Assembly: GCA_020630065.1 (NCBI GenBank)
Contig: JAHDCC010000022.1
Span: 2,568 to 57,612, forward strand
DNA from: Acidimicrobiales bacterium
Lineage (GTDB): Bacteria > Actinomycetota > Acidimicrobiia > Acidimicrobiales > SZUA-35
DNA: 55,045 bases
Reading direction: 5' to 3'
Made by a program: the position numbers and the translations under genes. The notes beneath the pieces are model-generated. The model was not told the origin of the DNA. It saw only the letters and a list, made by a program, of their open reading frames with translations, and did not search any database. This document shows positions 20,141 to 55,045 of the stretch, piece by piece. How positions within the stretch are numbered: the stretch's first letter is position 1; every line of letters starts with the position of its first letter.

Positions 20141-20761
20141 ATGGGTAAAAAAATTCGTTTAGTAATGTTCGGACGGCAGGGCGCAGGCAAGGGCACACAA
20201 TGTGTGCGGATGTCTGAACACTTCGGCGTCGTCCACTTCAGTACTGGAGATGCTCTCCGAGCTGCAGTCGCAGCCGGTACCGAACTAGGTAAACAAATCG
20301 GTGAGATCATCAACAAGGGCGAGTTGGTTGACGACTCGTTGATCATCCGGTTAGTGATCGAACGCCTAAACGAGGACGACATCGTCGAGAATGGGTGTAT
20401 TCTCGACGGCTTTCCACGTACAGTCGGCCAGTCAGAGGCGTTGCTGGCGGCGTTTGCCAGCGGCGAAGTTGCGGGTAGCGCACTTGACTGTGTGATCAAC
20501 CTCGATGTTCCTCTCGAAGAGGTTACCGCCAGGATGAAAGCCCGTGGACGCGACGATGACACGACCGAAGGAATAGCTCGACGTCTGGCCGCCTATGACA
20601 ACGAAACCGTTCCCGTTCTCGACTGGTTTGACGAACAAGGTTTGCTGGTAACCGTCGACGGCCTAGGTGACGAAGCCGAGGTCACCAACAGACTGGTCGA
20701 AGCTATCGAGAGCGCGGTGTACGGTGGCGATTCGGCTGCCGCCGACAGTTCAAGCTGCTAA
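20141..20761 (+). CDS. adk: Adenylate kinase, short-LID form
   Basis: 206 residues. The P-loop is GRQGAGKGTQ (about 11-20), the AMP-site motifs FSTGDALRAA and LDGFPRTVGQ are intact, and the LID is a short loop (KARGRDDDTTE region) rather than the long zinc-binding LID. It phosphorylates AMP to ADP. It follows secY after 107 nt; map, infA and the rest of the usual downstream genes are not next, the infA block resuming only at 31.6 kb. The C-terminus ends in a Ser-rich stretch. Confidence 0.95.
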   Translation: MGKKIRLVMFGRQGAGKGTQCVRMSEHFGVVHFSTGDALRAAVAAGTELGKQIGEIINKGELVDDSLIIRLVIERLNEDDIVENGCILDGFPRTVGQSEALLAAFASGEVAGSALDCVINLDVPLEEVTARMKARGRDDDTTEGIARRLAAYDNETVPVLDWFDEQGLLVTVDGLGDEAEVTNRLVEAIESAVYGGDSAAADSSSC

Positions 20762-32034: not shown

Positions 32035-32412
32035 ATGGCTCGTATTGCTGGCGTCGATATCCCGCGGGATAAGCGCACAATCATTTCACTTACATACGTA
32101 TACGGTGTGGGCCGCTCTCAGGCAGTCACCATCGTCGAGGAGACCGGTATTAACGGTAGTACTCGGGTTAAGGACTTGACCGATGACGAAGTGCAACGCA
32201 TTCGTACATGGCTCGATGAAAACCTCAAGACCGAAGGCGACCTCCGCCGTCAGGTTTCGCAGGACATCAACCGCAAGAAAGAAATTGGTTGCCATGCTGG
32301 CATCCGTCACCGTAAGGGCCTTCCGGTTCGTGGTCAGCGAACCCAAACCAACGCCCGCACCCGCAAAGGCCCCAAGCGGACAGTTGCAGGCAAGAAGAAA
32401 GTTATCAAGTAA
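32035..32412 (+). CDS. rpsM: Ribosomal protein S13
   Basis: 125 residues, beginning [14 protein letters not shown] and ending with the basic [21 protein letters not shown] tail. The [17 protein letters not shown] motif is intact. S13 contacts the P-site tRNA and the 50S subunit. It starts 2 nt after rpmJ and shares a base with rpsK. Confidence 0.97.
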
Positions 32413-32783
32413 TGGCCCGCAAGAAAGACCGCAAGAACGTCACCCACGGTGTCGCTCACATCAAATCAAGTTTTAACAACACGATCATCGCTATCTCTGA
32501 CCGTGGTGGAAACGTTATCTCATGGGCTTCAGCCGGAAACGTTGGTTTCACCGGTTCACGTAAGTCGACTCCATATGCTGCTCAACAAGCCGCCGAAGCA
32601 GCTGCTCGCCGAGCGATGGAACACGGAGTTCGCAAAGTCGATGTTCACGTCAAGGGCCCAGGCTCTGGTCGTGAAACCGCTATCCGTTCTATTCAGAACG
32701 CTGGCATCGAAGTAACAGGAATTAAAGACGTAACACCGGTGCCACACAATGGTTGCCGTCAGCCTAAGCGGCGGAGGGTTTAA
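32412..32783 (+). CDS. rpsK: Ribosomal protein S11
   Basis: 123 residues with the family motifs [24 protein letters not shown] and the C-terminal [18 protein letters not shown]11 forms part of the 30S platform. One-base overlap with rpsM and a 3-nt gap to rpsD. Confidence 0.97.
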
Positions 32784-32786
32784 GAC

Positions 32787-33401
32787 ATGTCACGCTACAC
32801 CGGCCCACGCGCCCGAGTATCACGCCGTCTCGGCACCAACATTTTCGGCACGCAGGGCGAAACCCAAGCTCTTGAAAAGCGACCGTACCCTCCTGGCGTC
32901 CACGGACGTACCCGACGTCGTGGAAACACCAGCGAATACCTGGTTCAGCTTCAAGAAAAGCAGAAAGCTCGCTTGTCGTATGGTCTGACCGAACGTCAGT
33001 TCCGGGTCGTCTATAAAGAAGCTTCTCGCCGTGAAGGTGTAACGGGTGAGAACATGCTCAAGTTGCTTGAGCTTCGCCTCGACAACGTGATCTACCGGTC
33101 CGGTTGGGGATCTACCCGACCACAGGCCCGCCAGTTCGTTTCCCATGGTCACGTGACTGTCAACGGCAAACGAGTTAATATCCCTTCATACCGTGTTCGT
33201 AAGGGCGATCTGATCGAGATTCGTGAGAAGACCCGCACTAACGCGATTGTTCAGTGGAACAAAGACGTGCTTGACCGGACCCCGCCAGCGTGGCTGGAAA
33301 AGACCGGCGATTTCTCTGTCAAAGTTTACGCTGAACCGCTGCGAGAGCAAATCGACATTCCGCTGCGTGAGCAGCTGATCGTCGAACTCTACAGCAAGTA
33401 A
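32787..33401 (+). CDS. rpsD: Ribosomal protein S4
   Basis: 204 residues. The S4 core is clear: YTGPRARVSRRLG at the start, PPGVHGRTRRRG, and an S4 RNA-binding domain with RLDNVIYRSGWGSTRPQARQ. It lacks the N-terminal zinc-binding Cys set seen in some S4 proteins. S4 nucleates 30S assembly and in E. coli represses the alpha operon, in which it lies here as well. Confidence 0.97.
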   Translation: MSRYTGPRARVSRRLGTNIFGTQGETQALEKRPYPPGVHGRTRRRGNTSEYLVQLQEKQKARLSYGLTERQFRVVYKEASRREGVTGENMLKLLELRLDNVIYRSGWGSTRPQARQFVSHGHVTVNGKRVNIPSYRVRKGDLIEIREKTRTNAIVQWNKDVLDRTPPAWLEKTGDFSVKVYAEPLREQIDIPLREQLIVELYSK

Positions 33402-33443
33402 TCATCTCTTAGAACGCATCGATACCCGAAACCGAGGAACCCC

Positions 33444-34385
33444 ATGCTGGTAATTCAGCGCCCCACAGTTGAGCAGCTTGATGATGGCGAGTCGAAACAC
33501 GGCTCGTTTGCTATCGGTCCGCTAGAGCCTGGCTTTGGTCATACGCTCGGCAACTCACTGCGCCGTACATTGCTGTCTTCCGTACCAGGATCAGCTATCA
33601 CTACTGTTCGTTTCGACGACGCCCTCCACGAATTCGACACGATCACTGGTGTTGTCGAGGACGTTACCGACATTATTTTGAACATCAAAGACATCGTTGT
33701 TCGAAGCGAAAACGAAGAGCCTGTTGTTCTTCGGCTCGACGTTAGCGGTCCGGGAGAAGTAACGGCTGGAGATATCTCCTGCCCATCCGACGTTGAAATT
33801 CTCAACCCGGAAGCCCCTATTGCGACGTTGAACGAAAAGGGTCGTGTAGCGGTTGATTTGACTGTCGAACGTGGACGAGGCTGGAGCGCTTCGTCTCGGC
33901 CGACCGAATCTCAGACGATCGGTATCATCCCAATCGACGCTATCTATAGCCCGATTCGTCGGGTATCTCTTCTGGTTGAACCAACCCGTGTTGAACAGTC
34001 AACCGACTTTGACCGCCTGATTCTCGATGTTGAAACTGACGGTTCGATGCCTCCTCGTGACGCGTTGGCTTCGGCTGGTGCAACGTTGCGAACGCTTGTT
34101 CAGCTCGTTGAAGAAATGACAGAAGAACCTGAAGGCCTCACCTTAGGTGAAGCCCCAGCTGCCGCATCTGGCTCTCCTGACCTTGATCTACCGATCGAAG
34201 ATCTTGATCTCACCGAACGTCCACGTAACTGCTTGAAGCGTGCACAGGTGAACACGATCGGTGAATTGTTAACCAAGAACGAAGATGACCTTATGGCCAT
34301 AACCAACTTCGGTGACAAGTCGCTACGCGAAGTCATCGCCAAGTTGGATGAACGTGGGTTGTCGCTGCGCGGAAGTAGATTATAG
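33444..34385 (+). CDS. rpoA: RNA polymerase alpha subunit
   Basis: 313 residues. The N-terminal dimerisation domain begins [11 protein letters not shown] and contains [18 protein letters not shown]. The C-terminal domain (about 245-313) carries [16 protein letters not shown], the alphaCTD that contacts UP elements and activators. A 42-nt gap separates it from rpsD. Confidence 0.97.
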
Positions 34386-34387
34386 AA

Positions 34388-34741
34388 ATGCCAGGTACAC
34401 CAAGAAAGTCTCGTCGTTTCGGCGGTTCGGCTTCACACCAGAAAGCTATGATGGCTAACCTTGTCGCTTCGCTTATTGCGGCTGAAGGCATCGTCACCAC
34501 CGAAGCTAAAGCTAAGGCTTTGCGTCCGGTGGCTGAAAAGCTCATCACAAAGTCTAAGAAAGGTGACCTTCACAACTTCCGTCAGGTTCTTGCCTACGTA
34601 CGCGACGTTGAGATGACCACCAAAATGTTTGATGAAGTCGGCCCTCGTTACGCCGACCGTCCAGGTGGCTACACCCGGATCTTGAAGCTCGGACCTCGTA
34701 AGGGCGACAACGCCCCTATGGCCCGTATCGAGCTTGTCTAA
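34388..34741 (+). CDS. rplQ: Ribosomal protein L17
   Basis: 117 residues: [26 protein letters not shown], shortened here to its [13 protein letters not shown] core, then [22 protein letters not shown] and the C-terminal [26 protein letters not shown] segment. It starts 2 nt after the rpoA stop. L17 lies at the tunnel exit. Confidence 0.97.
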
Positions 34742-40115: not shown

Positions 40116-40850
40116 TTAATAGGCGCCGTTGTTGGCGGGCCGCACCATTTGGGCGGCGGTTTTGAGACAGATTTTGATGTCTCCAGGTAGCGTCCGGGTG
40201 GTTGCGTATTCCACTTCGAGCATTGTTCTTTGGTCTAGGCTCAAGTTGTTTCGGCCGGAGACTTGCCAGAGGCCTGTGAGGCCGGGTTTGACCCGTAGGA
40301 GCGTATCGAGCACGGCCTGGTATTCGTCTTGTTCTGCTTCAGTGATTGGGCGCGGCCCGACTAGGCTCATTTCGCCTTTTAGGACGTTTGCGAGTTGGGG
40401 TAGTTCGTCGAGGTTGAGTTTGCGTATCCATTTGCCGACGGCGGTGACGCGGGGGTCTTGTTTGAGTTTGTATGAGGTTTCGTATTCGGCGCGGACTGCT
40501 GGGTCGGTTCGGAGTAGGTCGTTGAGTATTTCGTCGGCTCCGTGGTACATGGAACGAAATTTGTAGGCGTGGAACTTTTTTCGGTTCAGGCCGGTGCGTT
40601 CTGATCGGTAGATGGCGGGCCCTGTGGACGAGAATCTTATAGCGACTGCGACGGCGATCATAATCGGTGTTGTGGCGAGCAGTAGGCAGCTGGCGGCGAC
40701 GATATCAAAGATACGAACGGAGACTTGAGAGGTCTTCGATGGTGGATTCTCGTCGAGCTTGAAGATGGTGGAGCCGAGCTGGATAGTCGGTTCCCCACGT
40801 AGGTCAATTATGAGGGACGAAGTACGCGTCTTAGTCAGCAATGTCATCAA
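40116..40850 (-). CDS. Undecaprenyl-phosphate sugar phosphotransferase
   Basis: 244 residues. A short N-terminal part is followed by one membrane segment (about 50-72) and the bacterial sugar transferase domain: KFRSMYHGAD, LDELPQLANVLKGEMSLVGPRP and the C-terminal GLTGLWQVSGR motif. It lacks the large multi-helix N-terminus of WcaJ-type enzymes. It would transfer the first sugar phosphate of a repeat unit to the lipid carrier. It is the last gene of the polysaccharide cluster in transcription order, after a 309-nt gap. Confidence 0.88.
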   Translation of the reverse strand: MMTLLTKTRTSSLIIDLRGEPTIQLGSTIFKLDENPPSKTSQVSVRIFDIVAASCLLLATTPIMIAVAVAIRFSSTGPAIYRSERTGLNRKKFHAYKFRSMYHGADEILNDLLRTDPAVRAEYETSYKLKQDPRVTAVGKWIRKLNLDELPQLANVLKGEMSLVGPRPITEAEQDEYQAVLDTLLRVKPGLTGLWQVSGRNNLSLDQRTMLEVEYATTRTLPGDIKICLKTAAQMVRPANNGAY

Positions 40851-41159
40851 ACCTTGGATGATTGAGATCGGACTAATTCGAGTAACTAGCTCCGATTCCT
40901 GTGGGCGTGCAGGAATAGCTGATCTTCACGCATTAGCGAGACGACGGCAAGAGTATTCGGTGCCCCATCTATGACTTCGATAGCTTGTGTATGAATGGCG
41001 ATGAAAAGCCAGAGCGTAATAGTTAGGGGCTCATTCCAGGGGGATCTTTGTGCGACCTGAGTAGGAAATGCCTAAGTTCCTACAGGACTTAGGTTTGTTC
41101 GAATTGTTCTGGGGTATCGACGGCAAAGGCCCCCACATCACATTAGGAACGCCGCTGTC
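40851..41159. other. Gap within the polysaccharide cluster
   Basis: 309 nt with no convincing gene. A 36-residue open frame on the + strand (41068-41178) starts behind a weak AGGA, but it resembles nothing known and overlaps the end of the polymerase gene. The gap could hold a promoter for the sugar transferase gene; I cannot identify one. Confidence 0.45.
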
Positions 41160-42623
41160 CTACATGCCGTGGCTGTAGCTTCTTTTCCTGCGGCGCATCA
41201 GGTTCGGATGTGTGCGGAATAGTCTAACTGCGGCAACTAGTATCACTAGTTCCAGAATTCTGACTGATGCTCTTAACTGGTACTGAGACATATAGTAACC
41301 CAGGACAACGCTCGCAGCCGATAGAAGCCCCGTAGACGCAAGCGAGTGTCTGTAACAGCGTCCTACCATCCCTAGCACCACGCCGACTAATGCAGCTGCC
41401 AAAATTGACAAAAACGGACTCACTGCGAGTAGGATGCCCCACCCGTTCATCGGGAACCCTGTATTATTGCCATTGAACTTAAATAGGGCTAGGGACGATT
41501 CGATCTCAGCGTACGCGATACTCCCGGGTCTCGGGTCTAATGAGATTACCGTCGCTTGCCAAGGCTGTTGTAGACGATGTACGACTGCGTTGGTTGTTGG
41601 GAAACCGAGTGTCAACGTACTGAGGGATTCAAGGCTGAAACCAGCGCTGAGAATTTTCGGATCACGGTAGATCTCATGTGTGTATGCAACTAAGCCGTGG
41701 CTGGGAAGGACTCTTAGTTGTAAAGGGAGTGTGTAACCGAATGTTGTTACGAGTCCCAGAACTAGTGACTTTACTATTCGTTTAGATGAGACCACTAGAA
41801 TTGGCAAAAATAGTAGAAGTATCCCGACTCCAAGCCCTCTAGAAGCTCGAGCAAAGCTGAAAGCTAGCGCCACTGAGCCTGCGAGCATGAGAGGCCCTAA
41901 GTAAGGCTCTCGTTTGATTTTCGCTTGTGCAGAGGTGAAACCTAACAGTCCCATAGAGGGGAGAAGGGTAAGTGCGCCGAGCTTGACAAGGTTCTCGTTC
42001 GTAACAACATCGATATAGAACTCGCGTTTGATGAGCCGATCAAACCCGTAACCAGCTGTTGTAATAGCGACAATCGTTAGTAGTGCTCCAGCGGCATGTA
42101 TTGGTTTTAAGCGAGATTTTACTGTCGAAATTGGATCGTGACCTCGTCCGTTAGGTTGAATGATTTGAGCGAAAACGAATGCTGTGGCAGCCCAGCTGAA
42201 GTGCAACCAAGCAAGGTTCTGCCGTTGCTTAGGCATAAGATGAGGTAGTAAAGACACGATGCCATCATGTTGAGTAGGATCTAAAACCTGGTCGTACGTC
42301 AGATATCCGATGATCCCAATCGCTAAGGTAATTGTTGAGAACGTAGCTGCAGGTATCGGAGTAGCTCGTTGGCGGGCTAATTTGGTGCTACCTAGAAGAA
42401 GGTAAATGCTTGCAAGTGTGCGTGCAATCAGCCCAATACTCCCATCTACTCCTAGAGAAATCGCTAGCAGGACTACGCCGCTAACAGCCGAATACTCGGC
42501 AGTAGGTAAGGACGAACGCCTTATTTCACTTGGTGGATATTTTCCTGTCCGACTTTGGCCCATGTTTGTGGTTCTACCTGTGTAAATCGTTGGATTTGAA
42601 GTTTTTCGATAGCATTCAATCAT
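41160..42623 (-). CDS. Multi-pass membrane protein, probable polysaccharide polymerase (Wzy-like)
   Basis: 487 residues with about eleven to twelve hydrophobic helices and a large loop around residues 290-370. Position between a flippase/FkbM block and a sugar transferase, and the overall topology, suggest the O-antigen/EPS polymerase of this locus; sequence motifs of that family are too weak to decide. The start is uncertain: an ATG at 42563 (MGQSRTGKYPP) is an alternative. Codon use looks more AT-rich than in the ribosomal region. Confidence 0.6.
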   Translation of the reverse strand: MIECYRKTSNPTIYTGRTTNMGQSRTGKYPPSEIRRSSLPTAEYSAVSGVVLLAISLGVDGSIGLIARTLASIYLLLGSTKLARQRATPIPAATFSTITLAIGIIGYLTYDQVLDPTQHDGIVSLLPHLMPKQRQNLAWLHFSWAATAFVFAQIIQPNGRGHDPISTVKSRLKPIHAAGALLTIVAITTAGYGFDRLIKREFYIDVVTNENLVKLGALTLLPSMGLLGFTSAQAKIKREPYLGPLMLAGSVALAFSFARASRGLGVGILLLFLPILVVSSKRIVKSLVLGLVTTFGYTLPLQLRVLPSHGLVAYTHEIYRDPKILSAGFSLESLSTLTLGFPTTNAVVHRLQQPWQATVISLDPRPGSIAYAEIESSLALFKFNGNNTGFPMNGWGILLAVSPFLSILAAALVGVVLGMVGRCYRHSLASTGLLSAASVVLGYYMSQYQLRASVRILELVILVAAVRLFRTHPNLMRRRKRSYSHGM

Positions 42624-42715
42624 TGCTGGCTGCGGTATCTTGGGCGTAGATGCGCAGCGTACACAGCTAAAAGAAGCCGTGTTTATATGGGTCGTAGCGG
42701 TTATCTTAAACCCTG

Positions 42716-43405
42716 TTAACCGTTCGCTTCTGTTATGTGGTAAAGGTAGTCGTGATAGGTCATTTGTTCGACCATCCGATACCCGTTTTTGACAAGGTGT
42801 TTGTCTACTAGGTCTAACTTGCGCGCTTCAACTAAGATATAAGTAGGTCGATGACGGTCGAAGTCGATGCCTTCAAGAACTGACAGTTCGTACCCCTCGA
42901 CATCAAGGGACAAAAAATCGATCTGATTGGTCTCGCCGTGTAGATCCAGAACACTGCTTAAGGTCGAAGTCGGGACCTCTACCGAGTAGGTCGAATCCAG
43001 ATGTTGAACTTCTATACCTCGATTAATGTGTTGTTTCGTTTCTTCGACAGTTCCGAAAGATGAGTCGACCGTTGACATTAGGTCAGCGAAGTGCATGGTA
43101 ATAAACGGCTCATTAAACTCTTCTGACACTAGAGCAAAGTTAAATACCGCAGCATTTTCGCGTTCGGAACGGCATTTGTCGAACAGGGCAGGTATTCCCT
43201 CTACTAACACGCCTGTCCAGGCCCGCTTCTTTTCAAGATAGTAGGTATTGCTTTGTGTATAGCCATCGTTTGCGCCTGCTTCGATGAAGAAACCACCTTC
43301 GAAGTCTAGGTACTTTTGTAGTTTCTGATCCAAGTTGTTTAGAGATGGTTGACTTGACCTAACGAACTTTTTCTTTGTCTGTGACAATAGTCGGCGTGTC
43401 TTCAA
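42716..43405 (-). CDS. FkbM-family methyltransferase
   Basis: 229 residues. FIEAGANDGYTQSNTYYLE is the SAM-binding motif I of FkbM proteins and FLSLDVEGYELSVLEGIDF is their C-terminal motif. They O-methylate sugars or other small groups. In this locus it probably decorates the polysaccharide. Separated from the flippase gene by 162 nt and from the polymerase-like gene by 92 nt. Confidence 0.88.
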   Translation of the reverse strand: MKTRRLLSQTKKKFVRSSQPSLNNLDQKLQKYLDFEGGFFIEAGANDGYTQSNTYYLEKKRAWTGVLVEGIPALFDKCRSERENAAVFNFALVSEEFNEPFITMHFADLMSTVDSSFGTVEETKQHINRGIEVQHLDSTYSVEVPTSTLSSVLDLHGETNQIDFLSLDVEGYELSVLEGIDFDRHRPTYILVEARKLDLVDKHLVKNGYRMVEQMTYHDYLYHITEANG

Positions 43406-43567
43406 TTTTTTCCCTATCGGTATTTTTCGCTTGTTTGACTTTCAGACCATAGCTCACGATGCTGAGCTACTTGAGGACTTAGAAATGGTTCGGGATATTG
43501 GCTGAGCACTGCTAGTTCTTTCCTGGAAGCGAGTTTCTTGTTGCATCGAAGGCTGATCAACGGCTGC

Positions 43568-44896
43568 TCAAGTCTGGATTGATCGATTTAGGATTTCTTG
43601 CGTCACGCCATTGTTTCGGCTGCTAGGTCCAGAAACTCGGGCATAGAGATAGACCCAGCAAAGTAACGAACCGACAGCTGAAAGAAGGAAACCGAGAGAC
43701 GCTCCTACAAGGCCATAACTTGCTCCAAGAAGCGGAATCAACGTAATTGCAAGGAAGCCAGATGTTGTGCCTACAATCAGTACACTCCCCTCGAGGCCGC
43801 TTTTGTATGCGAGCGCTCGGATTCCAAGAATCGGTGAACGGACCGAAAAAGAACATGCCACAATGAGTAATACGATTAGGTCGATTTCCACAGAGCCAAT
43901 TTTTAGCGTGTCGAAGACAGCTACGACACCGACCATGCACAATGGGATTGTTGCGAGACCAAGGCTAATTGGGAAGAGCGATTGGCGTAGTCGGCCTATG
44001 TCCCACTGAGATATCTTCCAAAATACTACGATTCCAACTAAGTTGACTGGTCCTACAACTCCCAGGATCAATCTAAACTCGGCCATGGCGACATCCGTGA
44101 CTACACGGCTAAGAAGTAACAGTCCGACTCTCGATAACAACAGTCCAGTTGAAGCCTCAGCTACGAGTGTTTGTGCAGTTACACGTCTTCTCGCTAGGCC
44201 TTCGTATGCGTTTCTCAATGACCCTGGAGTAAGTGCTGCACGGATAAGCGGGAAACCGTGCACAAAGGATGCTGAAATGTGGAACACAAGTAGGATCGAG
44301 ATAGCGGACTCTGGGCGTGTGATAGTCCAACCACCGATGAATACGACGAGCCATCCGAGATCTCGACCAAGCAGGCTAAGCGCGTCCGACCTGGACGATA
44401 ACGCGAATGTTCTAGCAACTTCCACTGACAGGCCGATGGACATAACGGCAGTCGATATGAGTTCCAGGCCAGTTATAGATACCCCTGATATCGCTGAACC
44501 TACCGACACGAAAAGAACGGCGAGAGGTATCGTCGTCAACAGGGTGAGCAGCGATGCTGAACGATTGTTGGTCGCTGATAGTTTTGTTTTGGTAGCGAGC
44601 AGGGCCGACTCCGCAACTCCACTACGCACTAGGCCCACGAGAATCTCGTAGACGATGACTAGAACAGCCAACTTCGCAAACTCGGCCTTGTCTGACCAAC
44701 GAGAGGCAAACAGCAAAGGCAATATCTTCAGAACGCTATTTGACACCTGGCAAATGCCGACATTGAATCCACGGCTGGCCAGTGATCTGATTTTGGATCT
44801 TGGCGCACCGGTTTGTGATTGTTTTTTAGCGTTGGAATTTAAACCTAAACCTCTAGTCAAACCCTTAGTTGGTGAAGAACTATTCAATGCAAGCAC
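43568..44896 (-). CDS. Polysaccharide flippase (Wzx-like membrane protein)
   Basis: 442 residues with about twelve hydrophobic helices, basic N-terminus (about 1-45), no soluble domain. Topology and location are those of the MOP-superfamily exporters that flip lipid-linked repeat units. It starts inside the end of the double glycosyltransferase gene (17-nt overlap), so it is probably translated with it. No short signature motif could be used to confirm the family. Confidence 0.65.
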   Translation of the reverse strand: MLALNSSSPTKGLTRGLGLNSNAKKQSQTGAPRSKIRSLASRGFNVGICQVSNSVLKILPLLFASRWSDKAEFAKLAVLVIVYEILVGLVRSGVAESALLATKTKLSATNNRSASLLTLLTTIPLAVLFVSVGSAISGVSITGLELISTAVMSIGLSVEVARTFALSSRSDALSLLGRDLGWLVVFIGGWTITRPESAISILLVFHISASFVHGFPLIRAALTPGSLRNAYEGLARRRVTAQTLVAEASTGLLLSRVGLLLLSRVVTDVAMAEFRLILGVVGPVNLVGIVVFWKISQWDIGRLRQSLFPISLGLATIPLCMVGVVAVFDTLKIGSVEIDLIVLLIVACSFSVRSPILGIRALAYKSGLEGSVLIVGTTSGFLAITLIPLLGASYGLVGASLGFLLSAVGSLLCWVYLYARVSGPSSRNNGVTQEILNRSIQT

Positions 44897-46913
44897 TCAC
44901 CAGACCGTTTAGCCATTGTTGTGGTCGATACAAGTCCCTAATTAAAGGTGCTTCGTTTAAACTGGCTCTGCGGGTGCGGAGGTTCAAGACTTTGGCTACG
45001 CCAGGAGGGCTCCCGTCATGTTCTAATATATTTTCTGGGAATCGACGGGCTACTTCAATTTCTGGTGAATGACTGCAGTCGGAGTTGACTAAAGCGCCAA
45101 GCCCATGCGCCATAGCCTGTGTTAGGTTGAGCCCCACATATGTGGGGATTACTATGCAGTAGCATCGTTTCATAATCGAATGAAGCTCTTCGTTGCATGG
45201 CAGAAACCCATGGAAGTCAACCCTGTCTGCGATCCCGAGTTCAGTCGCTAACTTGATTGTGTTCAGACGATCCGGCCCATCGCCGACAACGTGTAGCCGC
45301 GTCTCTCCAGGTACCGAAGCAATTGCGTGTAGAGCAACGTCTAGGGCCTTGTTCTTGTCAATCCGGCCGAGGAATAGAAGGTCTTCGCCCTCACCAGAAA
45401 CAACGAATTCGGGGTCCGAGCAAGGGGGGAGTGGATTTGGCGCAGCCACAGATTGTAAGCCCAATTCTCGAAACCTAATCGCCTCGGACTCTGTGTAAGC
45501 CATCCAGCAGTTAGGGAGCCGTTGATATGCATTGCGAACAAACTTCCGCAAACCTCCAGCATCACCGTGATGGTCAAAGTGGCCCCAAAAAATGGTCCGT
45601 CTCCGCAAACACTTCCTAACAAGCGCAATCAGTACCGAATTTAGCCATCGAGGGTTTGCTTCGATCACAAGGGTGTGGGCGGAGAGCATTTTCTTGAATG
45701 ATCCGGTTTGCCATACTAACTGGCGACCTAAGAAAAACCTGTTTCTTGCGAGTTTAGGAGAAACGCCTTCCATGCTTTGAACGGACACGATGTGTTCTTC
45801 AAAGTGTTTGTCGCCCCAAACAAAGCTACATCCGAGGCCTGCTGCCTGACTAAATACTTCGGCCCTATACGGAGCGCCAATGAGCTGTGCTAACAATACT
45901 CGCGACAGTTCGTTAGCCTCCGAACCTTCGGTAAGTAGGCTGGAGAAATGCTCGATCGCTTCTCGGTGGGCAGTATCAAAATTCACTCGGCCTGGTGCAG
46001 ACTGTGTGTTCTGGAAAAGGTTCAGTAAGGCGTCTGTCAACGCTAGAACTTCAGGTTCAGCGGTCGTTATTACCCCACCGAGCTCATCGCTCATCTCTGG
46101 TATGCAGCCTCTAGGCGAAGCGATCGACGGCAACCCACAAGCTGCGGCTTCGTATAAGACCATTGGTGCTGCCTCCAGCTTTGAAGGTAATACTAAAACG
46201 TCTGACCTGCGCATATAGTTGGCCAGCTCAGATGATGAAAGAACACCAACTGGTTTTACGAAACTTTCAGTAGATTTATGTTCACGCCCAGCAAGAATTA
46301 ACTTGATTCGAAGACGACTCAAGCTACGTACTCTGCGGACTGCCTCCACCAAAATATCTTCGCCTTTACCGACGCCAGCGACGCCAGCAAATAGCACCGT
46401 TAAGTCATCAGACCTGGTGTTGTCATGATCTTGGTACAGGAAATCATCCCTCACGAATGCGGCGTTGCTAACCACTTTCCAGTTTCTATTCCCATATATC
46501 GATTCGATTTGCTCGCCCATTATCTTCGACAGGACCAAATGGGTGGCGTTGAATCGACGTGAGCAAATCATTCGCCAAAGGAACGAAGGCTGATAAATCA
46601 ATTTGAAACCATGGTGGTGATGAAGTACCGGAGTGCTGGAAAGTTTCGCGCAAAGTAACAAGGCGAGGACGAATAACATCCGTTCGCCCTGAACACCTTG
46701 TATGTAGAGCGTGTCGTTGGTCGCTTTTAGAACCCTTAGCAAGGCACGGCCATATGAGAACAATTCTCTGTAGGTCCGACCTTCGTCATCGAAACAGTCA
46801 AAGAGCTCTAAATCAAGTCCGAACTCCCTTTCAATTAACTCCATGGCTCGAGTTGTCACCATCCCTGGACCATCAACGGGTGGCGGTATGTTGCCAACTA
46901 CGATTACGCTCAT
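44880..46913 (-). CDS. Double-domain family 4 glycosyltransferase
   Basis: 677 residues, about twice a normal GT4 enzyme. The first half (about 1-350) has a GT-B fold ending in VLVLPSKLEAAPMVLYEAAACGLPSIAS, shown here as its PSKLEAAPMVLYEAAACGLP core. The second half (about 350-677) repeats the fold with DLLFLGRIDKNKALDVALHA and the sugar-nucleotide-binding CIVIPTYVGLNLTQAMAHGLG. Both C-terminal halves keep the E or Q position typical of the EX7E region only in the first domain (EAAPMVLYE); the second reads VGLNLTQAM. It could add two successive sugars. ATGA overlap with the acyltransferase gene. Confidence 0.85.
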   Translation of the reverse strand: MSVIVVGNIPPPVDGPGMVTTRAMELIEREFGLDLELFDCFDDEGRTYRELFSYGRALLRVLKATNDTLYIQGVQGERMLFVLALLLCAKLSSTPVLHHHHGFKLIYQPSFLWRMICSRRFNATHLVLSKIMGEQIESIYGNRNWKVVSNAAFVRDDFLYQDHDNTRSDDLTVLFAGVAGVGKGEDILVEAVRRVRSLSRLRIKLILAGREHKSTESFVKPVGVLSSSELANYMRRSDVLVLPSKLEAAPMVLYEAAACGLPSIASPRGCIPEMSDELGGVITTAEPEVLALTDALLNLFQNTQSAPGRVNFDTAHREAIEHFSSLLTEGSEANELSRVLLAQLIGAPYRAEVFSQAAGLGCSFVWGDKHFEEHIVSVQSMEGVSPKLARNRFFLGRQLVWQTGSFKKMLSAHTLVIEANPRWLNSVLIALVRKCLRRRTIFWGHFDHHGDAGGLRKFVRNAYQRLPNCWMAYTESEAIRFRELGLQSVAAPNPLPPCSDPEFVVSGEGEDLLFLGRIDKNKALDVALHAIASVPGETRLHVVGDGPDRLNTIKLATELGIADRVDFHGFLPCNEELHSIMKRCYCIVIPTYVGLNLTQAMAHGLGALVNSDCSHSPEIEVARRFPENILEHDGSPPGVAKVLNLRTRRASLNEAPLIRDLYRPQQWLNGLVSACIE

Positions 46914-47443
46914 CTGACTCCCTCGACAAGATCATCATCTTCCGTGATGTGCGTCAGGTCGATCCGATTTTGGTTCGACCAAGAGGCCTTCACTACTTCG
47001 TTTTCTTCGACAACCGAGCCGGGTGCGACAAACGCAGTCGCCCCGACCCACGCTCCGCTACAAATCGTGATCGGCTGGTTTCTGAACTCGAGAGAGGGGG
47101 AGTTCCAATCATGGTTGCCGGTACACACCAGCGCCCGTTGAGAGATACAAACGTTACTGCCGACTTTAATCGGCTCAAGATTCAATAAGTAGGCCTCAAC
47201 TCCAACCCAAACGTGGTCGCCGAGCTGCAGTTTCCACGGCCAGTGAATAGTTACGTCTTGTCTAATCAAACAACCGTCACCCACCGAAGCGCCAAACGCT
47301 CTCAGAATTGGCGGCCGTAGTCTGGCCGGTAGCCACCATTTCTTGAAAATAAGATTGCTTGTGACAAACCAGGCGGCTTGCCAACCAAGGCCGCGCCCCT
47401 TGTCGTATCCGTCTCCAGAGAAGTCGGCCAACCTTCGAAGCAT
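46910..47443 (-). CDS. WcaF-like hexapeptide-repeat acyltransferase
   Basis: 177 residues. Starts with the hydrophobic AAWFVTSNLIFKKWWLP segment and continues into left-handed beta-helix hexapeptide repeats (IRQDVTIHWPWKLQLGDH, VGSNVCISQRALVCTGNHDW, WVGATAFVAPGSVV). The HDW motif with the catalytic His is typical of colanic-acid WcaF-type O-acetyltransferases. It probably acetylates a sugar of the repeat unit. One-base overlap with the preceding glycosyltransferase. Confidence 0.88.
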   Translation of the reverse strand: MLRRLADFSGDGYDKGRGLGWQAAWFVTSNLIFKKWWLPARLRPPILRAFGASVGDGCLIRQDVTIHWPWKLQLGDHVWVGVEAYLLNLEPIKVGSNVCISQRALVCTGNHDWNSPSLEFRNQPITICSGAWVGATAFVAPGSVVEENEVVKASWSNQNRIDLTHITEDDDLVEGVR

Positions 47444-48618
47444 CAGAACCGCTCGATCGTCGACGTCTTGACGAAGCGTTCGATCACAGCGTCACGGCTG
47501 AAGTTTCGTTCAGCATATGACCGACCCTGTTTACCAGCGAGTTTACGGTCCTCCGGTTCGTTGACGAACTTGGTGATCGCATTCACCAAATCACCAGCCG
47601 TAGTAGTAGCCACTCCCGCTTCGGCTTCTTCAACAATCTGAGCCGACGGGCAGGCAGAATCCATAAATGCGACGATCGGTCTGCCGGCACAAAGATACGA
47701 AAGAATCTTTGACGGCACGCACGCTTCGGTCGCAGTCGGATCTAGTGTTGCTACGAGCACGTCAGCTGCACCCAACACCTTTGGAAGGTCGTCATAGTCT
47801 TGCAGTCCCCAAAAGTGAACCCGATCACTGGCCGCCAAAACCGGGTCGGACTTTAGTTCGTTGTAGCCGACTCCGGCAGCCGTGAACACGAACTCAAAGC
47901 GTTCGTCGGTCAAAAGCTCTTTGATCGCTATACCCAATTCATGAGAGCGATGTTTCGAACCGAGAGTGCCTGAATACGAAACTCTGAACGACCGCTCGTC
48001 CAGCCCATTCGATGTCGACCACTCGTTGATGCGTGGCTGTACATCAAGATCTTCAACCGGTGCCCAGTTAGGTAAGACAGCGACCGATTCCTGACCCCCA
48101 ATATCTTTTACCCTTTCGGCGAAACCTTCGGAGATGCAAACGACGTGGTCAGCCGAACGTATCTGCTGGGCCTCAAACCATGTCAAAATACGAGCAACCG
48201 TCTTTCCGCTCGTCAACGCAGCCAGATCACTTTGAAAATCTTGCAGCCAGTTAACGTAACGTTGCCCGCGTAGCCTGGCTGCTGTTCGCAAAATGCTCCC
48301 ACTTATAAGTGGGAGCTGGCAAGCAACAATGGTTTCAGATCGCACGCTTCGAGCCAGACGCCAGCCGTATATGACTTCGTCTTTGAATCGTTTGATCGGG
48401 TTGTGTTTCGCAAATGAGTGACCCAAGTCGATACCGTTAACTTCTAAGCCACGCTCGCGTAGTGAGTCCATATTCCCTGTCGGACACATCTCGTTGGACG
48501 AACAGTACGAATACGTCACGTCGTAGCCTTCGTCATGAAGCTGACCTGCCAATGTCGCAGTGAACGGGTGCCCCCCAAAATCAACGATCGAAAGACGTGC
48601 CTCACCGACTGCCGTCAC
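47443..48618 (-). CDS. Family 4 glycosyltransferase (WcaI-like)
   Basis: 391 residues from a GTG that overlaps the GDP-fucose synthase stop. The N-terminal half starts LSIVDFGGHPFTATLAGQL; the C-terminal half has FRVSYSGTLGSKHRSHELG and ADVLVATLDPTATEACVPSKILSYLCAGRP, here given by its PSKILSYLCAGRP core. This type resembles colanic-acid WcaI glycosyltransferases. Directly coupled to genes on both sides. Confidence 0.85.
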   Translation of the reverse strand: MTAVGEARLSIVDFGGHPFTATLAGQLHDEGYDVTYSYCSSNEMCPTGNMDSLRERGLEVNGIDLGHSFAKHNPIKRFKDEVIYGWRLARSVRSETIVACQLPLISGSILRTAARLRGQRYVNWLQDFQSDLAALTSGKTVARILTWFEAQQIRSADHVVCISEGFAERVKDIGGQESVAVLPNWAPVEDLDVQPRINEWSTSNGLDERSFRVSYSGTLGSKHRSHELGIAIKELLTDERFEFVFTAAGVGYNELKSDPVLAASDRVHFWGLQDYDDLPKVLGAADVLVATLDPTATEACVPSKILSYLCAGRPIVAFMDSACPSAQIVEEAEAGVATTTAGDLVNAITKFVNEPEDRKLAGKQGRSYAERNFSRDAVIERFVKTSTIERF

Positions 48619-49604
48619 TAGTTCGACACTTCTTGCTGGCCAGCGGTTCCACGGGCCCGGTCATAGTTATCAACGAACCATTGATAGCTAGCCTCAAGAC
48701 CATTGCGAAGATCAATGGTTGGTTTCCAGCCAAGAGCTTCGATTTTCGAAATATCCAGCACCTTACGTGGCATGCCGTCAGGCTTCGAAGTATCGAAAAT
48801 CAGGTCAGCTTCGGGGTAAACGACATCGCGGATAAGTAACGCCAGATCACCTATCGCTTGGTCGATGCCGGTGCCAACGTTGACATGTTGATCCTCCGAA
48901 TAATGATCCATCAGGAATAAACAGGCCGAAGCCAAGTCATCAACGTGTAAGAACTCACGCATCGCTTTACCTGTACCCCAAATCTCAACAGCGGGGTTGT
49001 TGGCTTTCTTTGCTTCGTGGAACTTACGGATCAGCGCCGGGATGACATGTGACGCCTCAAGGTCGAAGTTGTCGCCAGGGCCGTACAAATTGGTCGGCAT
49101 CGCTGAAATGAAGTCGTGTCCGTATTGCCTTCGGTACATCTCACAAAGTTTGATGCCAGCGATTTTCGCTATTGCATAACCCTCGTTAGTTGGTTCCAAA
49201 AGGCCAGTAAGTAGCTGGTCTTCGGCGATCGGCTGACTCGAGAGTCGAGGGTAAATGCAGCTCGAACCGAGATACAGAAGCTTCTTTACATTCGTCAAAT
49301 GGGCAGCATGAACCACAGTGCCATGAATCATCATGTTGTCGTACAAAAAATCGGCTGGGAAGTTAGAATTTGCTCCAACCCCGCCTACCTTGCCTGCCAC
49401 CAAATACACGTACTCGGGACGGTTTGAAGCAAACCATTTGTTCACCTCAGATTGATGACGTAAATCCAGTTCATCTCGACCGGCTGTCAAGATATTCGTG
49501 TATCCAGCATCGTGTAAAGCTCGTAGTAGCGCTGAGCCGACAAGGCCCCGATGGCCTGCAACGAAAATGGATGCTTCGTAAGGGACCGGCTGCAGGTTAA
49601 TCAC
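48618..49604 (-). CDS. fcl: GDP-L-fucose synthase
   Basis: 328 residues from a GTG start with AAAGGA about 8 nt upstream. The N-terminal [14 protein letters not shown] is the NADPH-binding motif; SSCIYP contributes the Ser and YAIAKIAG the Tyr and Lys of the SDR triad. It converts GDP-4-keto-6-deoxymannose to GDP-L-fucose, so the polymer probably contains fucose or a related 6-deoxy sugar. The partner GDP-mannose dehydratase is not in the window. First gene of the minus-strand cluster. Confidence 0.92.
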
Positions 49605-50667: not shown

Positions 50668-51508
50668 TCATTTCTTTGCTGTCTGTTTAGATACGAGTCG
50701 TTTCATCAGACGGCGATTCCTTGTCGGGATGGTCATCGCTGCGTCAGCCCATTGGCTAACGGCCTGTTCCAAAACATCCCAACTAACAGGGTTGTTTGTG
50801 TGGACCGCTCGTCGTAACCCAAGCTCGCCGTTGAGGCGTTTCTGCGATTTCCTGATGTACGAAAGGGCCGCCTGTCGTCCCGCTCCCTTGTCAGCCAGAA
50901 CATCGACCAGACCCAGCTCGAAGAGTTCTTCCGCCGAAAATCGGTCACCGCCGAGAATCATTTTCTCGGCCATCGCGGCGTTCAGTTTGTGAGCGATGAG
51001 ATGGTAGCCGCCCATGCCGGGAAACAGATTGAACATTATTTCTGGGAATCCGAATTGGGTTCCTCGTTCCGCTACGAGAACGTTCGCTGACAATGCAGAT
51101 TCGAACCCACCGCCGAGGGCATCCCTTTCGACCACACTGACAGTTACAACGTTGCCGCCAATGCCGTTGAACCAGCGATACACCAGGTCGATACAGGCCA
51201 GCCCATAGTTATATAGTTTGTGCACGATCTTGGGCTTCGATCGCTTGAACGAAATAGTTCAGGTCCCCACCGTAGTTGAACGCATGTTCGTCGTCAGATA
51301 AGTAAACGGCGTGGGTCAACCCGCACATTGTGTTCGTTTCTACAAAATCAAATGCATGCGCTAACTCCCCGAGCAGTTCGAGCGAATAACATTGCCGCGG
51401 TTCTGCGTTCGTATCTAGAAAAAGTGTGGAACCTTCGATGCGGACTCCCACCGCCCGGTTGTTTTGCCATCGCTCCTGCACTGGTATTCGTTCGGCGGCT
51501 ACATTCAT
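50668..51508 (-). pseudogene. rpfF: RpfF-like crotonase (DSF-type signal synthase), frameshifted
   Basis: Two consecutive frames make one protein. Codons 51508-51209 give about 99 residues ending in FNYGGDLNYFVQAIEAQDRAQ; the sequence then shifts frame near 51215-51225 and continues as YNYGLACIDLVYRWF to a stop at 50668. Joined, the length (about 280) matches RpfF. The catalytic Glu pair is kept: GGGFESAL and, 20 residues on, FGFPEIMFNLFPGMGGY, the same spacing as Glu141 and Glu161 of the Xanthomonas enzyme. RpfF makes cis-2-unsaturated fatty-acid quorum signals. The gene is either inactivated by a single-base indel or shows an assembly error. Confidence 0.7.
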
Positions 51509-51681
51509 TGGTCATCCTGGGTTATCTGTTGATCCCGGCGTTCGGGACTCGTTCAATCAGATACAAGGCGACAGACAAAAGTTCCCAGAACTTCCAAACC
51601 CGCGTAATTCCTCTCACCTCCAATGACGTAGAGCTGTTCGCAAAGCTTCGCGGAGTTTGTGGAGGAACCACCCAGTCAAAT

Positions 51682-51719
51682 TTTGTGTAGTGCTATTGCC
51701 ATGCTATAATTGTGGCATG
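51682..51719 (+). promoter_or_regulatory. Promoter and palindrome at the mazE start; leaderless transcript likely
   Basis: A perfect -10 TATAAT lies at 51705-51710, with a weak -35 (TTTGTG 51682-51687, 17-nt spacer). The start ATG is at 51717, only 7 nt after the -10, so the mRNA probably begins at or next to it. TGCCA (51697-51701) and TGGCA (51713-51717) form an inverted repeat spanning the -10, a natural site for autorepression by the antitoxin. Confidence 0.6.
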
Positions 51720-51956
51720 AGTCGAGTCAGGGTTTCCACCACCGTTTCTGAAGAACTCCTAAGCCAAGCCCGGGCCGCCTGTTCCGGCCTGAACGACGCC
51801 AAACTATTAGACCAAGCGTTGGAAGCGCTGGTGGCTCGTTACCGTTCAGCCGAAATAGACCGTGCCTACTCCCAGGCTTATGGTCAACACCCGATTGAAG
51901 AACCAGATGAATGGGGAGACTTGGCTAGCTTCCGTTCAGCAGCTGGCAATTCGTGA
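51717..51956 (+). CDS. Antitoxin of a MazEF-type module
   Basis: 79 residues from ATG 51717; an upstream extension in the same frame crosses the promoter and is unlikely. The N-terminal SRVRVSTTVSEELLSQARAA resembles a ribbon-helix-helix DNA-binding antitoxin of the actinobacterial type. The C-terminal part (Asp/Glu-rich) would bind the toxin. It overlaps the toxin gene by 4 nt (GTGA). Confidence 0.8.
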   Translation: MSRVRVSTTVSEELLSQARAACSGLNDAKLLDQALEALVARYRSAEIDRAYSQAYGQHPIEEPDEWGDLASFRSAAGNS

Positions 51957-52276
51957 CGAATCTGCCTCGACGGGGCGAAATCTGGTGGTGCGAACTTCCC
52001 GAAATCAGCCGGCGACCAGTCCTAGTTCTATCTCGAAATGCTGCAATACCTCGGCTCGGGCGGGTCCTTATCGCACCTTGCACAACAACGATTAGAGGTC
52101 TTGCTAGCGAAGTGGTTCTCGAAGAAGGTGAGGACCCGGTCCCGAAAACTTCCGCCGTCAACCTCGACTCTATAGAGAGCGTATCGACAGGTCTTTTAGT
52201 GGAACGCATTGGGCAAATCAGCGTTGATCGTCTGCATCAAGTGTGTGCAGCGCTCAAGGTGGCAGTCGACTGCTAA
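51953..52276 (+). CDS. MazF/PemK-family toxin endoribonuclease
   Basis: 107 residues from GTG. The MazF signature is visible: RRGEIWWCELPE, RRPVLVLSRNAAI, VLIAPCTTTIRGL with the conserved Ser/Thr-rich loop, and the C-terminal IGQISVDRLHQV. MazF proteins cut mRNA or rRNA at short sequence motifs to slow growth. Coupled to the antitoxin gene; the module looks intact within a decayed neighbourhood. Confidence 0.92.
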   Translation: MTNLPRRGEIWWCELPEISRRPVLVLSRNAAIPRLGRVLIAPCTTTIRGLASEVVLEEGEDPVPKTSAVNLDSIESVSTGLLVERIGQISVDRLHQVCAALKVAVDC

Positions 52277-52751: not shown

Positions 52752-53411
52752 GTGGCTATAAAGGTTAAAGAATCGTACGATTTCGGCTCACAATTATCAG
52801 CCGATCCTCTAGTCGTTGTCGAAGATGCGGTTCTGTCCGCTGGAGAATGTGAACACATCATCGACCTAGCTCGGGGCCGGTTGGAAGCAGCGAAAGTTAG
52901 CGCCGCCGAAAAAGGGGTGTTCAGTCCGGGGCGCACAGGAAGTAACTGTTGGTTGAATCACCTTCAAAGCCCAATCGTTTGCGACGTGATCACGCGTATC
53001 TCAAACATGGTTGGGATCCCTGCCGCGAACGCCGAATCGTTGCAAGTAATTCACTACGCCGAATCTCAAGAGTATCGACCCCATTTCGATGCCTATAACA
53101 CGTCGACCGAGCGAGGCGTGAGATGTACCGCGAAGAGCGGTCAACGTATGGTTACGGCGTTGCTGTACCTCAATACTGTGGGGCAAGGCGGAGGTACAGG
53201 TTTCCCCGAGTTAGGCATCGAAGTGCCAGCTGTCGAGGGCCGAATTCTGGTGTTTCATAACACTCTGCCCGGCACGACCGAGGTCCACCCTTTGTCGATG
53301 CACGGCGGGCAGCCGGTGACGGTGGGTGAGAAATGGGCCTGCAATCTATGGTTCCGTGAGCGCGTCACACAGGTTGATAGAACGTCGAATCTGCGTCTGT
53401 CTCTCGACTAG
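52752..53411 (+). CDS. Prolyl-4-hydroxylase-like Fe(II)/2-oxoglutarate oxygenase
   Basis: 219 residues from a GTG with AGGAGGG about 6 nt upstream. The metal triad is visible as EYRPHFDAYN (His111, Asp113) and MHGGQPVTVGEKW (His184), with Lys194 in position to bind 2-oxoglutarate. RMVTALLYLN and GGGTGFPELG are typical of the P4Hc family. No signal peptide, so it acts in the cytoplasm. The next gene on the same strand, 172 nt on, encodes a secreted protein with long Pro-Glu repeats; hydroxylation of those prolines before export is an attractive idea but only inference. Confidence 0.88.
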   Translation: MAIKVKESYDFGSQLSADPLVVVEDAVLSAGECEHIIDLARGRLEAAKVSAAEKGVFSPGRTGSNCWLNHLQSPIVCDVITRISNMVGIPAANAESLQVIHYAESQEYRPHFDAYNTSTERGVRCTAKSGQRMVTALLYLNTVGQGGGTGFPELGIEVPAVEGRILVFHNTLPGTTEVHPLSMHGGQPVTVGEKWACNLWFRERVTQVDRTSNLRLSLD

Positions 53412-53583
53412 GCATTTTTTATTCAGAAATTGTCCCCCGAATATGGTTCGTCAATCGTTGTACTTCAAGATGCGCTACTTTTCGGATCTCACCGAGAGGT
53501 AGACTCAACCCATCGGCGGTCGAAACCGTCCCGGTGGCTACGAAAAATTTAGTTCGGTTATCTTGACAAGTGGGAGTCAATAA

Positions 53584-55045
53584 ATGCCAGCCAATGCGGA
53601 CAATTTCGATCCGAGAGCGCCACAACGCGACGATCAACACAGTCGTCGGTTTGATTTCTTTGCCCATATTGCTGATCCGGTTGAGACTGGAAACGGGCAT
53701 GTGCAGGAGGCGTGGATTGAGGACCGCATGCGGCAGCGTTGGGCTATCGCTCAGACCGAGAACGTCGCCCCGGTACCTGAAGCTGTTCCTGTTGTTTCGC
53801 AAACTGCGGTAGGCGCCGACGACGCTAAGTTAGAGGCATTGGCTGAGGTTCATTGGCTAGCGACTGAGAAGCGTCGTTTCCTTTCGAGCGCGAGTCGTGT
53901 TGCGAGTGTTCCGAAGTTGGCGAAGGTTGCTGCGGCTGCGGCTGTCGCTGTCCCTATTGCTCTCACGTTGGGTTCTGCGCCCGCAGCCGCCGACCCTCCA
54001 GGGGCTCCAAATAACACCGGTACTGGCCAGACCTCAACCTCTAACCAGCCGGAACCTGAGCCGGAGCCAGAACCGGAGCCAGAGCCAGAACCTGAGCCGG
54101 AACCAGAACCTGAGCCTGAGCCAGAACCGGAGCCTGAGCCAGAGCCAGAACCGGAGCCAGAGCCAGAACCTGAACCTGAGCCAGAACCGGAGCCGGAGCC
54201 TGAGCCAGAACCAGAACCGGAGCCAGAGCCAGAACCTGAACCTGAGCCAGAACCGGAGCCTGAGCCTGAGCCAGAACCAGAACCGGAGCCTCAGACTGGT
54301 ACGGGTGATCATCATCCCGATCCTGAGCCAGAACCGGAGCCTCAGACTGGTACGGGTGATCATCATCCCGATCCTGAGCCGGAGCCGGAGCCTGAGCCTG
54401 AGCCGGAGCCGGAGCCTGAGCCGGAGCCTCAGACTGGTACGGGTGATCATCATCCCGATCCTGAACCGGAGCCGGAGCCGGAGCCTGAGCCTGAGCCGGA
54501 ACCAGTACCAGAGCCTGTTTCTGATGAGCCCGCGCCTCTGAATCCAGGTCAGAATCCTGGAATGGAGCCTGAAACGCCTGAAACGCCTGAAACGCCGGAA
54601 GAGCCTGAGACTCCTGAAGATCCTGAGACTCCTGAGACTCCGGAAACGCCTGTTCTGGGTCAGCCAGGACCTGAGACGCCTGGTGCTGGACTGCTTGGTC
54701 CGGTTTTGGATCCTCCGGTGTCGGAGGATGACCCGTTTGATCTCGGTCTAGATCCGGAAACACCGGAAGAGCCTGAGACTCCGGAAACGCCTGAATCTGC
54801 ACCGGAACCTCCTCCAGGTGTCCCCGACGGCGCCGTCCAACAAGCCGACGGGAGTTGGACCCATTTCAATGGAGAATCAACTACCCAATGGGGCCCTGAA
54901 GGTGATTTTCAAGGCTTGGCGCCTGATGAAGCAGACGATTCTCCGCCATCAATAGATCCTGATCCTGATCCTGATCCAGGACCTGAAACTCCTGATACTC
55001 CTGAGACTCCGGAAGAGCCTGAGACGCCTGATGCTGGACTGCTTG
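53584..55045 (+). CDS. Exported Pro-Glu/Pro-Glu-Thr repeat protein, partial
   Basis: At least 487 residues; the frame runs off the window. It starts at ATG 53584 behind GGGAG. The first 105 residues are hydrophilic and lack a classical signal at the very start; a hydrophobic stretch then begins around 113 ([16 protein letters not shown]) and ends with APAAA at 132-136, which looks like a signal-peptidase site. From residue 156 follow long EP/PE runs, with the segment [13 protein letters not shown] inserted three times (DNA starts 54292, 54343, 54430), and then PET/PEE/PED repeats to the edge. A short folded-looking segment ([19 protein letters not shown]) interrupts near 415-440. Probably a cell-surface spacer or adhesin; the end and anchor are not visible. 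Confidence 0.75.
54292..54465 (+). repeat. Three copies of a [11 protein letters not shown]-coding unit in Pro-Glu repeats
   Basis: The unit CAGACTGGTACGGGTGATCA (first 20 nt shown) continuing to CATCCCGATCCT starts at 54292, 54343 and 54430. Spacings of 51 and 87 nt are multiples of 3, so the frame is kept. The paired His and nearby Asp residues could bind a metal. Confidence 0.85.

Follow-up and report, generated by a model that had tools for sequence, protein, structure and literature searches.

A gene for a putative cytosolic prolyl 4-hydroxylase (P4H) and a gene for an apparently exported protein with long Glu-Pro repeats lie side by side in a 55,045-nucleotide stretch of DNA from an Acidimicrobiales bacterium (hereafter the window; bases 2568-57612 of contig C13, in a genome of 3.7 Mb and 81 contigs). 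Genes encoding Glu-Pro runs adjoin this P4H subfamily more often than chance predicts, in three separate contexts: the window, Gilvimarinus, and Marinobacterium together with G435, a genome found among 193 relatives of Marinobacterium weihaiense. That the P4H takes its Glu-Pro-repeat neighbour as substrate, an idea put forward in a preliminary description of this DNA, is in our estimate evenly balanced. An algal P4H has been seen bound to an X-Pro repeat, and bacterial P4Hs are reported to act on EF-Tu or synthetic collagen-type peptides; the present results suggest, as a new element, a genetic link to Glu-Pro-repeat surface proteins.

The P4H and its repeat-protein neighbour

The P4H-like 2-oxoglutarate (2OG)- and Fe(II)-dependent oxygenase is encoded by a complete open reading frame (ORF) of 219 aa with a GTG start (52752..53411, + strand). 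The repeat gene (53584..55045, + strand, ATG start, 487 aa seen) follows 172 nt downstream. This arrangement agrees with the preliminary description, as does the presence of an intact enzyme with His111, Asp113, His184 and Lys194, checked here on the ORF and on an alignment of 64 homologues. These iron- and 2OG-binding residues (a His-X-Asp...His triad and Lys194) are kept in 64, 64, 63 and 63 of the 64 homologues, respectively, the exceptions being gaps in one fragment. The protein matches the Pfam family 2OG-FeII_Oxy_3 (PF13640, 3.9e-13), and all nine of its matches in a PDB sequence search at E 0.001 are P4Hs, the best being that of Bacillus anthracis (2.8e-27); the algal enzyme scores 1.8e-25 and human collagen P4H alpha-2 5.6e-25. 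No signal peptide was seen on the enzyme by eye, and its cytoplasmic location is thus read from the sequence alone. Judged in this way, the oxygenase is a cytosolic P4H of the small algal or B. anthracis type.

An AlphaFold2 model of the enzyme (predicted local distance difference test score, pLDDT, 91.7), built from a 35-row alignment of relatives, has the predicted double-stranded beta-helix fold shared by P4Hs. Among solved structures, it comes nearest to the algal enzyme in complex with (Ser-Pro)5 (3gze_A: Z 29.3, root-mean-square deviation 1.7, 193 residues, 32% identity), and the best 35 structural matches are all P4Hs. A passage of PMC7948501 describes a set of Arg, Trp, Glu, Tyr, Arg and Trp residues shared by P4Hs for substrate binding or catalysis, which, by alignment to the algal P4H, map to R61, W67, E95, Y108, R132 and W200 of the window enzyme. 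R61, E95, R132 and W200 are kept in 64/64 aligned homologues and Y108 in 63/64, and W67 in at least 90% of the 35-row alignment. The substrate loops of the algal P4H close over the X-Pro peptide, according to part of PMC9676403, so the modelled fold and groove of the window enzyme would suit an extended X-Pro repeat. Its assignment as a peptidyl P4H is well supported by the predicted fold and the residues.

The neighbouring ORF contains 126 Pro and 97 Glu residues in 487 aa, which bears out its earlier description as a protein of Pro-Glu and Pro-Glu-Thr repeats. Its pure Glu-Pro runs have 40, 9 and 7 units and are followed by Pro-Glu-Thr repeats. The run of 40 units (54052..54291, + strand) varies at synonymous positions only. 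Two (Glu/Asp)-Pro runs of 10 and 8 units, split by a 10-residue-type linker, were located by run scan and sequence (54370..54504, + strand), and Pro-Glu-Thr and Asp-Pro repeats occupy 54570..55040 (+ strand, limits approximate), within which the contig ends. The signal for export lies internally: a hydrophobic segment of 27 residues, rich in Ala (53914..53994, + strand; about residues 111-137), preceded by an N-terminal extension of ~110 residues, ends in AAAD and leads into the Pro/Glu-rich region. Export is accordingly read from hydropathy and by eye, not from a signal-peptide program. Completion of the 3' end, proposed in the preliminary description, was stopped at base 57612, the end of both window and contig; the 3' end of the repeat gene is absent from the assembly because contig C13 stops inside the gene.

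The 56 Glu-Pro units of the window gene are written with six synonymous hexamers, and the run genes of Gilvimarinus, Marinobacterium and G435 described below use 6, 7, and 6 and 6, respectively; as the units were picked as Glu-Pro, these counts show synonymous diversity rather than an unbiased substitution rate. With six to seven synonymous hexamers per gene, a DNA satellite free of coding constraint was judged unlikely. In Pfam the repeat protein matches PF05887 (Trypan_PARP) alone and below the cut-off; the match is compositional, and kinship with trypanosome procyclin was rejected. Two paralogues in the same genome (L003 on contig C41 and L004 on C54) match the N-terminal part of the repeat protein, one over ~71 residues (41% identity; E 1e-5) and the other over ~94 (36%; E 5e-5), covering part of the N-terminal region and the internal signal-like stretch, and one of them is likewise rich in Pro/Glu/Thr repeats. 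The three proteins perhaps form a small, lineage-specific family of putative exported proteins. Across 148 genomes of relatives, the only further match to the repeat protein is a weak one in G069 (7e-4), which contains two stop codons.

Glu-Pro-run genes beside P4H genes in other bacteria

A scan of 84,980 species genomes yielded 44 P4H loci, mainly from Actinomycetota, gammaproteobacteria and cyanobacteria. At two of these, the P4H is directly preceded by a co-directional gene whose product looks exported and contains a long Glu-Pro run. The partner in Gilvimarinus xylanilyticus is a 446-aa lipoprotein with a lipobox, 58 Glu-Pro units and a CBM15 domain (3.5e-28), separated from the P4H by ~130 nt; that in M. 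weihaiense is a 1361-aa LapA-type adhesin with 53 Glu-Pro units, ~70 nt from the P4H, which matches the retention module NF033682 at 93.4 bits (cut-off 50). In G435 the P4H is flanked by two retention-module adhesins, one with 34 and the other with 25 Glu-Pro units, in the order adhesin, P4H, adhesin, SapC, all on one strand, and both adhesins carry a module homologous to that of Marinobacterium (69-70% identity). The C-terminal half of a similar adhesin adjoins the P4H of M. alkalitolerans, where the contig is broken upstream; another contig of this genome ends with a retention module and Glu-Pro repeats, and is perhaps the other half of the same adhesin. Save for export and the run itself, the CBM15 lipoprotein, the LapA-type adhesins and the window protein are mutually unrelated.

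PF05887 is a composition-driven proxy for such proteins, always below cut-off; the 53-unit Marinobacterium run scored only 1e-4, and, according to the threshold chosen, the family also matches between 3 and 7 of 14 control genomes. Because this proxy is noisy, runs were measured directly on the DNA. Altogether 87 P4H loci, window included, were scanned for (Glu/Asp)-Pro runs of at least 8 units (0.81 Mb; 68 clusters at 90% identity), a set that includes near-copies, the halves of a split gene (L125/L126), a locus with a P4H fragment only (L064), and 21 loci with 1.5-kb flanks only and <40% identity. Runs were found at four loci, those of the window, Gilvimarinus, Marinobacterium and G435, and all five run genes, of which G435 has two, directly adjoin the P4H on the same strand. 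The four viral-relative P4H loci scanned were without Glu-Pro runs. Given 49 PF05887 places in the 139 Mb of the 44 P4H-bearing genomes, and assuming one gene per kb, 0.031 Glu-Pro-type neighbours are expected in the 88 slots of the 44-locus set, compared with the two seen (L040 and L053; P ~5e-4).

The linked runs comprise 25-58 units (median 40, the two G435 genes counted separately), versus 21 and 19 for unlinked runs of at least 8 units (P 8e-4). The substrate-binding loops of the five linked P4Hs are also more basic, with charges of +3 to +8 versus a mean of +1.7 for 53 others (P 0.005), and their catalytic domains carry +5, +4, -1, -4 and -6 versus a mean of -6.4 (P 0.008; six distant sequences were left out, and L053 and L058 were counted separately). 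More basic loops and domains are what an anionic substrate would favour.

Ancestry and co-occurrence

On a tree of the P4Hs (from which L051, a 93-aa piece, and the duplicates L187 and L189 were left out), the linked enzymes are not grouped: the label requires four changes, three to four in bootstraps, and the linked P4Hs form one clade in 0% of 200 bootstrap trees. The P4H itself is patchily distributed, being present in 8/148 genomes of relatives (E 1e-8) and 8/395 genomes of the class (E 1e-20), the window's own genome included in both. The relatives' P4H loci scanned include those of G089 and G101 (as L026 and L039) and of G571 and G750 (as L033 and L043); no Glu-Pro run of at least 8 units was found in the sequenced flanks of other P4H loci from these relatives. 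In the reverse direction, 37 of 59 loci brought in by PF05887 searches of relatives hold runs of at least 8 units, and none has a P4H-like frame in its ~1.5-kb flanks.

Among the 193 relatives of M. weihaiense, retention-module adhesins are present in 69 genomes, and 30 of their loci were examined. A Glu-Pro run follows the module in 3/3 P4H-positive versus 2/27 P4H-negative genomes (the latter being G436 and G437; P 0.002, kinship uncorrected), P4H-negative meaning here and below that no match was found at the E-value limit of the search concerned. Neither Glu-Pro spacers nor P4Hs thus require the other, and their association has the appearance of a recurrent, optional specialisation. The linkage on which the preliminary description had placed weight is missing from close relatives, and recurs in Gilvimarinus, Marinobacterium and G435.

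Proposed function and alternatives

As the likeliest reading, we hypothesize that the cytosolic P4H would hydroxylate prolines of the disordered Glu-Pro repeats, and perhaps also of the Pro-Glu-Thr repeats, before the chain is exported, in a reaction that would depend on O2, Fe(II) and 2OG. Export would then proceed by Sec (window and Gilvimarinus) or by type I secretion (adhesins), routes suggested by the type of protein. Hydroxylation may stiffen the polyproline-II spacer and would add hydroxyls to a cell-surface stalk; speculatively, the modified spacer might be stiffer or hold more water, or might offer a site for glycosylation. Hydroxylation of the repeats, its sites and its cellular effect are inferred here, the first because of adjacency and active-site fit. 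The enzyme-substrate pair of the preliminary description has gained an adjacency beyond chance and a suitable active site, and is now partly supported. If correct, the proposal would give a function to some of the Glu-Pro runs that are common in exported proteins. A broader version, which we advance tentatively and consider somewhat unlikely, is that actinobacteria and gammaproteobacteria recruited P4Hs on several independent occasions as dedicated oxygen-dependent modifiers of very long Glu-Pro spacers in cell-surface adhesins and lipoproteins. Such proteins would be the bacterial equivalent of hydroxyproline-rich cell-wall proteins, and the availability of oxygen and iron would then adjust the cell surface in its stiffness, its adhesion or its further (glycosyl) decoration.

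C. reinhardtii P4H-1 acts on cell-wall glycoproteins in the secretory pathway, and the P4H of Paramecium bursaria Chlorella virus-1 is said to have been proposed, in a 1999 paper in the Journal of Biological Chemistry, to act on proline-rich repeats coded in the virus's own genome, one of them containing Pro-Glu; we know of no gene adjacency between this viral enzyme and a substrate. The viral P4H (PDB 5c5t) is a weaker match to the window enzyme (7.7e-10). The Chlamydomonas reinhardtii enzyme (PDB 3gze, 2jig) resembles it in being single-domain, in having the closest fold and in its peptide-binding residues, and was crystallised with an X-Pro repeat peptide, (Ser-Pro)5 (3gze; described in part of PMC9676403). 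Unlike the algal protein, the window enzyme is bacterial and without a visible signal peptide, and its neighbour carries Glu-Pro instead of Ser-Pro. The P4H of B. anthracis (PDB 3itq, 5hv0, 5v7y) is likewise bacterial and single-domain and is the best sequence match, but has Phe in the alignment where the window enzyme has Trp67; its action is described for synthetic collagen-type peptides in a portion of PMC8968730, and for EF-Tu in the title of PDB entry 5v7y. With the LapA-type retention-module adhesins that have Glu-Pro spacers (Marinobacterium, G435), the window protein shares the Glu-Pro run only; no module was seen in it, an NCBIfam scan not having been made of this protein. Most bacteria cannot produce hydroxyproline, as stated in part of PMC8968730. 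The modified residue is considered to be largely missing from the proteins of bacteria, and for bacterial P4Hs few natural substrates are known. At the level of titles and abstracts in open-licence PubMed Central, no literature was found on a bacterial P4H linked to a Glu-Pro-repeat surface protein. The occurrence of a linked enzyme and repeat protein in named, cultured-type bacteria (G. xylanilyticus HB14 and M. weihaiense A346) makes the question directly testable.

Several observations weigh against an enzyme-substrate relationship. The pair is not conserved in close relatives (148 genomes), where the search for orthologues of the repeat protein gave no clear case, and 83 of the 87 P4H loci are without such a run in their sequenced flanks, some of these being short contigs or 1.5-kb flanks; for the family as a whole, the term 'dedicated', used in the preliminary description, is therefore too strong. 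Gene order varies: the P4H precedes its partner in the window, follows it in Gilvimarinus and M. weihaiense, and lies between the adhesins in G435. Promoter or operon evidence for the window pair was not found: a single promoter-like match, on the opposite strand, and a single terminator-like match, within the repeat gene, are no more than occur in shuffled sequences. PF05887 matches at E 1e-4 are present in 41/140 and 85/187 P4H-negative relatives, compared with 5/8 (P 0.06) and 5/6 (P 0.08) P4H-positive genomes by the same noisy proxy, a difference that is only suggestive, and with the index genomes removed the latter become 4/7 (P 0.13) and 4/5 (P 0.14), which are not significant. The genome G436 has an adhesin with a 28-unit Glu-Pro run and SapC directly behind it, with no P4H between them and no P4H match at E 1e-40; G437 also has a run and no P4H match, its contig ending inside the adhesin. 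The five genomes with Glu-Pro adhesins are the five with the best module match, and kinship alone may explain the association of module, run and P4H. The strongly supported branches of the tree force only one label change, and 49/500 shuffles of the label come out as low; several end branches are long, and the joining of the G435 P4H with L007 is perhaps an artefact. A single origin of the linked P4Hs with later losses may therefore be compatible with the tree. The whole-domain charge of the window P4H (-6) is average for its family, and the P-values for charge, run length, adjacency and co-occurrence are post hoc, come from small samples and ignore shared ancestry.

These points leave room for other explanations. 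It is a serious possibility, to which we give less than even credence, that the oxygenase serves a housekeeping or regulatory role by hydroxylating prolines of another protein, for example EF-Tu, and that its adjacency to Glu-Pro genes is incidental. Most homologues do occur in other contexts: by eye, the P4H lies behind acyl-CoA dehydrogenase-like genes in L022, L023, L051 and L063, and between CofE-like and ABC-transporter-like genes in L050, L055 and L057. Moreover, 18 of the 44 P4H-bearing genomes, 13 of them from Actinomycetota, are without a PF05887 match at E 1e-3, so the P4H family must have other substrates. Prolyl hydroxylation of EF-Tu is described for Pseudomonas PPHD in part of PMC4543633, and the title of PDB entry 5v7y names EF-Tu hydroxylation by a P4H that shares the B. 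anthracis sequence. What a housekeeping role leaves unexplained is that the Glu-Pro-run genes in the flanks are always immediate neighbours, that the linked P4Hs are ungrouped on the tree, and that the linked runs are longer.

It is improbable, in our view, that both genes are passengers of variable, horizontally moving DNA in which surface-protein and P4H genes are common and often meet. The patchy occurrence of the P4H would fit such a history, as would the surroundings in the window, where the pair is closely preceded by a PemK/MazF-like toxin gene and an enoyl-CoA hydratase gene that may have decayed, and at a greater distance by an exopolysaccharide-type cluster; in one relative (G193), the P4H gene is in two same-strand parts (L125 and L126) ~40 kb apart, with phage-like genes beside them (by eye), an apparent insertion. 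Against this, the neighbours are specifically Glu-Pro-run proteins, all five co-directional with the P4H, and no integrase or mobility genes were noticed by eye beside the Gilvimarinus, Marinobacterium and G435 pairs, no dedicated search having been made. Since 2OG oxygenases are generally known to differ in substrate despite similar sequence, the likeness to protein P4Hs could also mislead, the true substrate being a free amino acid, a small peptide or another residue. With P4Hs making up all nine PDB sequence matches and the best 35 structural matches, and with the peptide-binding residues kept, we regard this as very improbable.

Other genes in the window and at P4H loci

Upstream of the P4H, a small ORF without a Pfam match ends overlapping the PemK/MazF-like toxin gene (PF02452, 5.5e-17), and the two (51657-52276) are probably a toxin-antitoxin pair. 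On the - strand at 50668-51508, two ORFs overlap: one of 185 aa with a partial enoyl-CoA hydratase domain (positions 87-173 of the 251 in the PF00378 profile) and one of 99 aa for which no match was found. Together they possibly represent an enoyl-CoA hydratase gene broken by a frameshift. The exopolysaccharide-type cluster (40119-49604, - strand) encodes an FkbM methyltransferase, a glycosyltransferase and a GDP-sugar epimerase-type protein by Pfam (three proteins scanned), along with sugar transferase-like and flippase-like genes by eye; the cluster, at ~40-49.6 kb, shows no tie to the P4H and repeat genes. Ribosomal-protein operons with secY- and adk-like genes, and other genes interspersed, were recognised by eye at 9500-20758 and 32035-34738.

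In a Rickettsiales bin (L034), the P4H gene has, by eye, a pseudopilin-like gene on one side and flagellar-type genes on the other; a separate contig of this genome (L065) encodes an RTX-type protein with a Glu-Pro run of 48 units. P4H matches were also obtained in 17 plasmid and 17 phage records, of which only the best plasmid match was examined. On this plasmid, pTK9001 of Thioalkalivibrio sp. K90mix (L250:7728-9596), a P4H of the same subfamily (53% identity) is fused to a C-terminal tubulin-tyrosine-ligase-like domain (PF03133, 6.9e-6, above the Pfam cut-off), and the chain is a possible combination of hydroxylase and ATP-grasp ligase in one protein.

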